Below, piece by piece: positions 1 to 64,000 of a DNA stretch of 64,000 nucleotides (positions are counted from its first letter, which is position 1; each line of letters starts with the position of its first letter). The translations under genes were made by a program, and so were the position numbers. The stretch lies in contig JAVTLE010000016.1 of the NCBI GenBank assembly GCA_033439295.1, forward strand, positions 2,542,001-2,606,000. The letters are read 5' to 3'. The notes beneath the pieces were generated by a model. That model made no database searches, was not told the origin of the DNA, and worked only from the letters and a program-made list of their open reading frames with translations. Source of the DNA: Deuterostichococcus epilithicus. Taxonomy: Eukaryota > Chlorophyta > Trebouxiophyceae > Prasiolales > Stichococcaceae.

Positions 1-3000
1 TCATGTCACGCCTACCCTGCTTGATTCCAGCGGCACTCCAAGACAGAGCTACTCTCTGAACACGTTCCACTGCACTGAACAGGCTGAGACAAGGACATTG
101 GTGAGGCTTTCCGCGTGCTGGTGTGTGCGACATGGCCGCCATAAGCAACCACATCTGCAGACGGCTATGTTACTGCCCGTCAGGCCCAGGTGCCGCCACA
201 AACAGCTTGCCGTCCTCAGCAATCAGTGCTCTCTCAGCACTCTCGGCATGCCGCGGCGACCGCACCTGTGCCACGAAGCCGGATGCTGCAGGGTGGCACA
301 TGCAAAGCTCGGCTCGCGGGCGCACGGAGAGCTGGGGCGGCACCTGAGACATGGTCGATGGCGGGCGGCGGCACCAGGAAGTTGGTCGGCAGCCGCAGAT
401 CGCCGTCGTACTGCATCATGCCCGCGAACAGCGTCTGCGGGGCACAGAGTTCAGCGGGTTTGCGGAACGAGTGCCTCGAGCCAGACGAGCCACATCCGCC
501 GCCCGGCTGCGTGCTGGTCCAGCAAAGGGAGGCGGCACCGACGGGGGTCCGGGTGTGCTGCAGACAGCATTAGACACCATGCAGCTGCTGTGCGTCAATC
601 AGGCCGCGCTGATGCGTACAAACCCCAGCGCAAGGGTGCCACGGGAGGAGCGTGCCTTGGGCCACCGCTTGCGGTCGAATGCGTCAAAGTCCTCGTACTC
701 GAAGGCCTTGCTGATCTCCACCATGCGGTCCGCACGGAAGTTGAACAGCACCTGCGGCATCGCAAACCTGGGGCGTTGGGAACGCTGGAGTTCGAGTCCA
801 GCCGCAACCTGCCGTCCGCCCAGCGCGGCGGAGGCTGTTCCCTGGTATTGCTGCTCGCTACACTTGGTGGACGTGGGAGGGCACTGTGCAGCACAGCTGC
901 CACGGCTGGTAGGAGGGCTTCAGCGACCCGGCGACAGAACAGAGCATCAAGTCAGGCATTGTGAGCGATGCTGAGCTTTGCTTGTGCACACTTGAGGAAT
1001 TTGATCTGGATTGCTCAAGCACATCATACAAGTTGGAGCAGGTGGTTGGCAGTGCACCACTGCGTCTCCGTCCTCGACAGTGCCCACGGGCTTCTTGTCG
1101 TCGTCCACGATGACGAAGGGCGGCAGCCACTGGTCGCTGACGGGCTTGCCATCCTCGCCGCCCTTCTGCGACAGGAACCAGCGTCGGCAGGAGCGTCAGC
1201 GTCGTGGCGGGCCTCCGTAGCTCAGGCCGGAGCGTCGCGGAACGCCAGGCATGCAACCGGAGGCCAGGAATGCACTGAACCCAGTCTCCGTCCCCACCCC
1301 CTTGCCTGCGTGCGCACGGCACAGCAGGTGCCCGAGCGATGTTTGGAGACCAGCGCAGGAGGCGGCGCACCCGCAGAGTTTTGACGGCATCCAGCGCGTC
1401 TGTGAAGGTGTGCGGCGCCTCGCCCAGCACGTGCGCGTACCAGCCCTTCTTGACGATGTTCCAGTCCGCCTGCGCATGCGACACAAAGGCAGTTTCTCAC
1501 CGGCGGGATGAGGACGCTGCAGGCAGGCACGGCCGGAGGTGTGCAGCGCCTCGTCCAGTACGTGCGCATACCCCTCCTTCTTCACAACGTTCCCGTTCGC
1601 CCATGCTGTGGGCAGGGACCCACAAAAGCCGCAGCAGGAGACGTACACGCCAGAGACCTTTCGTCACGATATTGGCCGTCTGCATGCATTGTGCGGCAGC
1701 CAACACACTGGCAATGCGGGCACCCTCACTGGCGACCCCGCCAGCGCTGCGAGCAATGGCGGCCTGCAGTAGCGTCGCGGCACCAACGCACGGTCTGCGT
1801 AAGGTCGTTGCCCCTTGATGGGGGGCCCAGCGCCAGGACCACTGGTGCAGCGAGTGGTCCATATACGCAGTCATTTATTTGTTTAGCTTTGTTTTGTCAA
1901 CCTCGTAGCGGTCCATGGTCACGCCCATGCGGCCGCCGCCGCTCGCGATCTTGGCGTCGCAGCCGCCAGCAGACACCTCCTTCAGGTCCTTCTCCAGCTG
2001 CTCCACGAAGGGGATGGAGCTGCCGTCGGGCACGTCCCGGCCATCGGTCAGGATGTGAACCCGGATGCGCTTGGCGCCCTCCTTGGCGGCGCCCTCCACG
2101 AATTGCTTCAGCTGGTCGTACCGGGAGTGCACGCCTGCGGACGGGAAGCAGCAGGAAGGTGTGAGACGTCTCTGGCGTCAGGTTCTCTGACGGTGCCTCC
2201 TTCGCGGGACCCTGAGTTCGTCATGCCTTGCGTGCACGCCTGTGGCGCGAGAGAGCAGGGTGGCGTCGCTAGGCCATTCCATTCTGTGACAATCAGGAGA
2301 CGATCCGTGGATGAAGTCCATGTGTTGTGGGCCACTGCGTGCCCTGCGCGATTCCTCGACTCGTGAACAAGAGTTTGCAATGCGCAGGGGACGCCCACAG
2401 CTTGGGCTTGTGCGTGCAGGCGCAGCCAGCCAGCCAGCCAGCCAGCTGCTGCTGCTGTGTGGATCGCTGCAGTCTGCAAAGGATGCTCCATCCGCTATTG
2501 AGAGCTTCTTGTATACCCCCCATCAAGCTCCAGAGGCTGGCTGGCGCCACTGCGCACACGGCGCGCTCTGTCACCCTGTCCCCGCGGCTCAGGCAGCAAC
2601 AGCTGAGGAGGTGCGCACCGCCGTCGGACAGCAGGCCGATGAAGTGCAGGGTGTGCTCTGCCAGCGCGGGCTTGATGTACTGGAAGCCGTCGCCGGTAAA
2701 GGCGGCGCCGCTCTCCAGCGCAATGTCCACCAGCCGCGCACCCTGCATTCAGCCAGACACTGGGTCAGCTCTCGTGCTGCGGGAGCCTGGGGTGTGCTTG
2801 TGGACCACAGGCCAAGCCTGCATCGGCGGGTGCAGCAGGGGCTGCTGCCGTGGGCGACCTGCGGCCATGCTTCGCACTGCGGCTGTGCGCCTGGTAGATG
2901 GTTGCGCTGCAGCACCAGGCTTCCTCAGATGCTCACGCCAGGCGGAACAGCGGCCTTCCAGCCGGCCAGTGCTCGCGCAGCCGCACCTGGTCGACGACCT

Positions 3001-63900: not shown

Positions 63901-64000
63901 GCATCTGCAGCAGGTCGGAGATGAGGGAAGAGACCTCCAGGGCGCTGTTGTAGCGGGCCTCGTCGAAGGGCAGCCCGAACAGAATGTTGTCCCGCACTGT
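54956..64000 (-). CDS. ABCC/MRP-type ABC transporter, 5' part off the window
   Basis: Full-size ABC exporter of glutathione and other conjugates, usually vacuolar in plants and algae. The window starts inside nucleotide-binding domain 1: [20 protein letters not shown] (63898-64000), [20 protein letters not shown] (63462-63522, signature), [20 protein letters not shown] (Walker B, about 63200-63260) and [20 protein letters not shown] (about 62590-62733). A charged Ala/Glu/Lys linker lies near 61580-61760. Membrane domain 2 follows: [38 protein letters not shown] (about 60190-60260), [40 protein letters not shown] and [20 protein letters not shown]. Domain 2: [29 protein letters not shown] across a junction near 57500 (Walker A), [97 protein letters not shown] and [20 protein letters not shown]. 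Both ATP sites look intact. A GC donor is likely near 55373. At least six introns contain relics of an adjacent exon. Confidence 0.93.
56150..56315 (-). pseudogene. Two decayed copies of the ABCC Walker B exon head
   Basis: Copy 1 (about 56150-56214) reads [20 protein letters not shown] and copy 2 (about 56288-56315) reads [11 protein letters not shown]. The functional exon, with its head at 56089, reads [20 protein letters not shown]. Steps between heads are about 125 and 101 nt. Both copies sit in the intron upstream of the functional exon. Copy 1 has lost the Walker B Asp (LDE to PEE). Confidence 0.8.
57042..57084 (-). pseudogene. Decayed copy of the [16 protein letters not shown] exon head
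   Basis: Minus-strand gcaggtgccggtgctatg and following bases match gcaggtgccggtgctgtt at the functional exon head (56969), 115 nt away. The copy has its own cag acceptor and then diverges. Confidence 0.8.
59415..59457 (-). pseudogene. Decayed copy of the [17 protein letters not shown] exon head
   Basis: The copy matches the functional exon head (59357) at a distance of 100 nt. It has a one-base insertion and a one-base deletion, so it is frameshifted. The acceptor position has cactg instead of gcag. Confidence 0.8.
60443..60473. repeat. 31-bp palindrome with two CACGTG cores
   Basis: gtacttcacgtgatc, a central t, then gatcacgtgaggtac. The 15-nt arms are complementary except for one T/G pair. 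It lies in an ABCC intron. Confidence 0.9.
60494..60530 (-). pseudogene. Decayed copy of an ABCC exon tail plus donor
   Basis: Minus-strand agcatgctcgcaaagctgct followed by gcggtgaag matches the functional exon end (GMLAKLLR|gtgagg at about 60637), roughly 140 nt downstream. It is a tail copy, in the downstream intron. Confidence 0.7.
62822..62891 (-). pseudogene. Decayed copy of the [19 protein letters not shown] exon head
   Basis: Reads [19 protein letters not shown] after its own cccgcag acceptor. It matches the functional exon head (62733) at 158 nt. The frame is still open but conserved residues are changed (NQLQ to SRLR). Confidence 0.75.

Follow-up and report, generated by a model that had tools for sequence, protein, structure and literature searches.

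Do the introns of this green alga carry worn copies of the exon edges beside them, and, if they do, which process put them there? The question arises from the window, a 64-kb stretch of the Deuterostichococcus epilithicus genome. For this stretch the original prediction had listed at least ten intronic copies in four genes, with exon heads copied into the upstream intron and exon tails into the downstream one, and had read them either as relics of short tandem duplications or as decoy splice sites.

The genome around the window comprises 46.8 Mb in 21 contigs. We analyzed the window together with 17 further stretches of 10 kb each (170 kb), all beginning at base 300,001 of their respective contigs, for a total of 234 kb or about 0.5% of the genome. 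Exons are throughout the predictions of an exon/intron model trained on this DNA, with a splice consensus of AG/GTGMGY at donors and YGCAG/G at acceptors (the slash marks the junction) and median lengths of 121 nt for exons and 249 nt for introns. GC replaces GT at about 12% of predicted donors, a fraction that is high if real and that the model may overstate; one example lies at position 25846 of the window, where gcaagtg follows the CPX exon that ends at 25845 and the protein is continuous across the junction. The non-coding DNA of the 234 kb also contains TGCAG 837 times and CTGCA 854 times, each against 184 expected from base composition (4.5-fold for TGCAG), and the palindrome TGCA/CTGCAG is strongly over-represented on both strands, CTGCAG being enriched 5.1-fold in introns and 4.6-fold in exons. 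The predicted exons of CPX join, without any relic sequence, into a full coproporphyrinogen oxidase (Pfam E-value 1e-126), whose predicted protein aligns over its full length with a mitochondrial enzyme of known structure (2aex) and with four homologues. Its nearest named relatives are proteins of the green algae [Myrmecia] bisecta (77%) and Coccomyxa subellipsoidea (74%), and a metagenome protein is 90% identical to it.

When the window was compared with itself at a score of at least 36, 13 direct-repeat pairs were found at distances below 600 nt, versus four in the 32-fold larger range of offsets from 600 to 20,000 nt. The 170-kb sample showed the same excess, with 46 short-distance direct repeats versus 5.5 expected from far offsets. 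In the pooled 234 kb, direct pairs at this score numbered none at 20-60 nt, 10 at 60-100 nt, 29 at 100-150 nt, 10 at 150-200 nt, six at 200-300 nt and none at 300-400 nt. No inverted pair occurred at 60-400 nt, and the two found below 60 nt both come from a single hairpin in L013. Between 60 and 300 nt, pairs joining an exon to non-coding DNA numbered 32 (0.16 expected), exon/exon pairs 15 (0.99 expected) and non-coding pairs eight (1.15 expected), several of the last eight being derived from one minisatellite or from copies of copies.

The same signal was seen from the exon edges. At a score of at least 26, exon heads compared with 354 introns matched the adjacent intron in 23 cases, introns of other genes in none and the reverse complement in two, and only one match was left when introns were block-shuffled, a procedure that moves blocks of two bases and falls short of a strict dinucleotide shuffle. 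Exon tails matched the adjacent intron in 16 cases, versus two in other introns and one in the reverse complement. Merging near pairs left 53, of which 41 link sequence within a predicted exon to a copy beyond that exon's limits; the remaining 12 have both copies in one exon or involve no exon. Copies of exon edges in introns are thus real and extend past the window.

The window itself holds 12 such pairs, spread over four genes: iPGM, a GDSL-like gene (with a Pfam score slightly below the cut-off), CPX and an ABC transporter. The copies are given below with their step, the distance to the original, and their identity.

1537-1601, minus strand: iPGM, head of exon 1371-1469 copied into the upstream intron; step 131 nt, 82% over 65 nt; partly under a weak predicted exon (score 2)
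13376-13447, plus strand: GDSL-like gene, tail of exon 13081-13288 copied into the downstream intron; step 163 nt, 73%
25021-25066, plus strand: CPX, head of exon 25136-25246 copied together with the acceptor; step 111 nt, 80%
26059-26100, plus strand: CPX, head of exon 26176-26325 copied together with the acceptor; step 112 nt, 81%
27677-27722, plus strand: CPX, nearer copy of the head of the last exon, 27795-27853, including 17 nt of intron; step 101 nt, 83%
27599-27627, plus strand: CPX, farther copy of the head of the same last exon; step 193 nt to the exon and 92 nt to the nearer copy, 86% over 29 nt
54864-54919, minus strand: ABC transporter, tail of exon 54963-55099 copied into the downstream intron; step 93 nt, 77%
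56154-56214, minus strand: ABC transporter, matching the head of exon 55939-56079; step 136 nt, 74%
56297-56320, minus strand: ABC transporter, a second copy, short, matching the head of exon 55939-56079; 88% over 24 nt
57049-57106, minus strand: ABC transporter, matching the head of exon 56846-56971 and including about 30 nt of intron; step 113 nt, 76%
59422-59469, minus strand: ABC transporter, matching the head of exon 59263-59357; step 100 nt, 88%
60498-60536, minus strand: ABC transporter, tail of exon 60638-60788 copied together with the donor; step 136 nt, 90%
62844-62897, minus strand: ABC transporter, matching the head of exon 62570-62733; step 158 nt, 80%; intronic status less sure because a weak exon, 62766-62891 (score 9), is predicted there

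Seven of the ten steps listed originally were recovered (92, 100, 101, 111, 112, 131 and 158 nt) and a second step of 101 nt was not found. The step given as 115 nt is probably the pair that we measured at 113 nt (56936/57049), and that of 125 nt (24001/24126) turned out to be a GCGGCGGCGCCG-rich match with a score of 27, which we left out of the count. Three exon heads of CPX indeed have copies, the last of them two. Our search added the pairs 54864/54957 (93 nt), 56018/56154 (136 nt), 60498/60634 (136 nt) and 13213/13376 (163 nt). Outside these four genes, an 86% identical non-coding pair with a step of 196 nt (31655-31696 and 31851-31893) lies in an SSF symporter gene, near the starts of both introns bordering its exon 31715-31794.

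The 41 pairs consist of 26 copies of heads lying upstream and 15 copies of tails lying downstream, nearly always in the adjacent intron. Among 311 exons, heads matched the upstream intron 22 times and the downstream one once, and tails matched the downstream intron 12 times and the upstream one once. With an extension of 30 nt allowed, the alignments reach the splice junction in 41 of 41 pairs. Steps range from 83 to 272 nt, with a typical distance from the original of around 115 nt, and the largest include double steps over an intermediate copy (193, 209, 224 and 264 nt). Steps divisible by three are scarce (8 of 41, one-sided P-value = 0.039); such duplications may have entered the reading frame instead. 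Each copy holds 25-71 exon bases, and the stretch between copy and exon edge measures 37-226 nt, never less than 37. The outermost 45 nt of exons are copied far more often than exon positions 45-90 or intron ends: segments 45-90 nt inside exons matched in 5 of 276 cases (downstream exon) and 4 of 278 (upstream exon), with one control match each, and matches within the own intron were found for 4 of 324 intron tails (control 0) and 3 of 324 intron heads (control 1). In seven of the 41 pairs (L010 166, L013 1248, L015 11, L015 5632, L017 2207, L018 5026 and window 62686) at least half of the copy is covered by another weakly scored predicted exon, and the term intron is less certain for them.

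One copy starts from an edge that is not a splice site. At L010:166-358, the predicted coding end with its stop codon is copied 126 nt downstream and the copy extends 21 nt beyond the stop, an event of the same kind as the others. Among predicted coding ends, 3 of 24 score at least 26 (control 4 of 552), namely the strong case in L010, a weak one in L013 and a candidate in L018, seen as an overlap of two ranges; among coding starts, 1 of 26 does.

Copies differ from their exons at 95 of 647 first, 101 of 652 second and 132 of 634 third codon positions. First and second positions are thus equally changed, and the excess at third positions is what silent changes of the exon itself would be expected to add. 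Since 41 of the 44 indels in copies shift the frame, coding constraint is not seen. Donor or acceptor signals at the inner ends of copies are not above chance, which argues against cassette exons. Tandem duplicates of exons, or mutually exclusive exons, would comprise a whole exon with both splice sites and an open frame, and the copies are frameshifted and hold only 25-71 exon bases. Judged from these patterns of change, the copies appear to be non-coding and inert.

Copies often form arrays. A scan at the lower threshold of 34 (the 99th percentile of controls is 34.5) found two to four copies for 14 of the 37 edges tested, with four in L007 at steps of 94-116 nt. The copy nearest to the exon has the best score in 11 of the 14 arrays (6.4 expected, P-value = 0.013), and steps within one array are no more alike than steps between arrays (P-value = 0.31). 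Copies rarely have derived changes in common (630 of 886 sites are identical, versus 602 expected if they were independent), and therefore most of them seem to derive from the exon itself.

Introns with copies are longer, with a median of 451.5 nt versus 257.5 nt for those without. At a score of at least 26, we found two hits in 153 introns shorter than 250 nt and 26 hits in 78 introns of at least 400 nt. After subtraction of the largest step, the 33 introns with relics resemble other introns (P-value = 0.12), whereas they still differ after subtraction of a 55-nt insertion (P-value = 3.6e-5). Growth of the intron by the whole step speaks for tandem units.

We consider it probable that these copies were left by serial tandem duplications of about 80-170 nt across exon borders, whose intron half has eroded. 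Short units would have struck exon borders repeatedly. Where a unit spanned the junction with enough intron beside the exon, the splice site adjacent to the exon would have kept working and the protein would have remained unchanged, while the extra exon edge would have become intron DNA and decayed neutrally. New units would mostly have been added next to the exon, leaving older copies farther out, and each would have lengthened the intron by one unit. Strand, adjacency, inclusion of the junction, the minimum spacer of 37 nt, neutral decay and longer introns all agree with the tandem duplications proposed originally; the intron half of the unit, however, is nearly untraceable, and each unit being a full tandem duplication is our interpretation.

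The intron half is plain in two units (L015 9178 and L017 3772). The former, at L015:9178-9469, is a young unit (92%) of 133 nt across an acceptor, with the intron half as similar as the exon half and an older copy lying beyond it. In the other pairs, more than about 15 nt away from the splice site, intron-side identity is no higher than background (36 pairs), in the least diverged pairs too. Anchored alignment tests gave weak or no signal, and a pair-HMM found a trace in 12 of 37 pairs at a rank P-value ≤ 0.05, with a mean z of 0.77 ± 0.21 that excludes the two clear tandem units. These flank tests dropped some rows, five named pairs in the identity profile and first pair-HMM run and two in the test on 37.

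We compared this pattern with simulations. Blind tandem duplication spread evenly over time leaves more than 15 nt of intron-half similarity in 112 of 135 exon-type pairs and yields 205 non-coding pairs beside these 135. Single old ages lower the ratio of non-coding to exon-type pairs to 0.20 at K of 0.25-0.35 and to 0.03 at K of 0.35-0.5 per lineage. With splice signals held constant and K of 0.4-0.5, similarity ends near the splice site and the intron-flank z is 1.38; this old-unit simulation recovers only 18 of its 606 events, however, and the real number of events would then have to be very high. The data are also approached when intron DNA is made to change six-fold faster than relic DNA, with a ratio of 0.23 and more than 15 intron bases in 40 of 176 pairs. 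Plain and steady tandem duplication does not reproduce the data, and a past burst or faster intron decay is needed. The intron half may have eroded since both of its copies were free to change, if units are mostly old or introns change faster than relic DNA. The search for paralogues with which to calibrate intron decay returned nothing usable.

In a rival process, a patch of 40-75 nt from the exon border would have been copied during break repair or fork restart and pasted about 40-110 nt away in the intron, leaving the spacer undisturbed. Such templated insertions ('doublets', or repair-mediated capture) are described in vertebrates (PMC2671141), and here the copy is indeed much shorter than the step and the spacer mostly not duplicated. 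We nevertheless hold them to be rather unlikely. If the process were blind, copies of exon interiors or of plain intron should be common, and simulated patch insertion included the junction in only 41 of 106 exon-type copies, with 148 non-coding pairs, unlike the data; moreover, introns with relics are longer than a 55-nt insertion explains.

A second rival is a process that recognizes the exon edge. It would copy the border with at most 5-15 intron bases into the neighboring intron, in a way tied to splicing or nascent RNA. The sharp end of similarity at splice signals, the preference for the outermost exon bases, the sense-only orientation and the apparently independent origin of copies from the exon (630 identical sites versus 602) all fit it. 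No mechanism is known for it, though, and it must face the residual intron similarity in 12 of 37 pairs and the stop-codon edge copied with 21 nt beyond it in L010, which also weakens an origin through the spliceosome only. We find such a process doubtful, and equally so its fuller form, in which edge-aware copying, sense only, about 115 nt away and repeatedly from the exon, for example by nascent-RNA-templated repair, would have made introns largely out of such patches.

Many copies still bear a fair splice signal, which might suggest decoy or alternative sites under selection, as the original prediction offered. The AG of the acceptor is retained in 18 of 26 copies of heads and GT or GC in 11 of 15 copies of tails, about what neutral decay predicts, and frameshifts and substitutions ignore codon position, the third-position excess aside; a function of this kind is very improbable. 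That the copies are relics of intron creation by tandem duplication of AGGT-bearing exon sequence, a known route of intron gain (PMC3443670), is hardly credible, as it predicts a step equal to intron length (steps are 83-272 nt and relic introns 271-753 nt, 10th-90th percentile) and a copy abutting the opposite splice site, and two to four copies of one edge occur within one intron. Introner elements or a mobile-element spacer were rejected because spacers have no family in common and match over 10-15 nt only, sharing within a locus aside; microhomology at TGCAG was rejected because AGGTG is not enriched in introns (0.91), so tail copies would stay unexplained.

These copies are a visible source for intron lengthening. 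As exon borders are fixed references for reading worn copies, a single genome allows small duplications to be measured for rate, size spectrum and age, and the missing intron half, if real, would point to a splice-aware copying process. We found no description of arrays of exon-edge copies at such density in the open-access literature searched, which is weak evidence of novelty as subscription papers were mostly outside its scope. Among related phenomena, a potato case of intron gain by tandem genomic duplication has reportedly been found.

The closest parallels are the repair-mediated duplications by capture of proximal DNA (Pace et al. 2009, PMC2671141) and the 'doublets' of Thomas et al. 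2004, as cited there. Both are, as outlined in that paper, local duplications tens to hundreds of bases long, with splice sites included and mostly neutral. Its Table 2, however, gives few donors that touch exons (four partial exon/intron versus 278 intron donors), and one exon copy quoted there is inverted, whereas in the alga exon edges prevail and near copies are all in the same sense, within around 300 nt and often in arrays. In tandem exon duplication (Ivanov and Pervouchine 2022, PMC9013439), exon sequence is likewise doubled beside itself within a gene, but in the alga edges rather than whole exons are copied, and the copies are non-coding. Exon bases with a copy of at least 80% identity number 676 of 63,331 in the alga (1.07%), versus fractions given in that paper of 0.08% in fly, 0.06% in worm and about 2% in human, obtained with a different method. 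Finally, intron gain by tandem genomic duplication, as presented in PMC3443670, also relies on small genic tandem duplications made harmless by splicing; in the alga, by contrast, no new intron arises and existing introns seem to have been lengthened.
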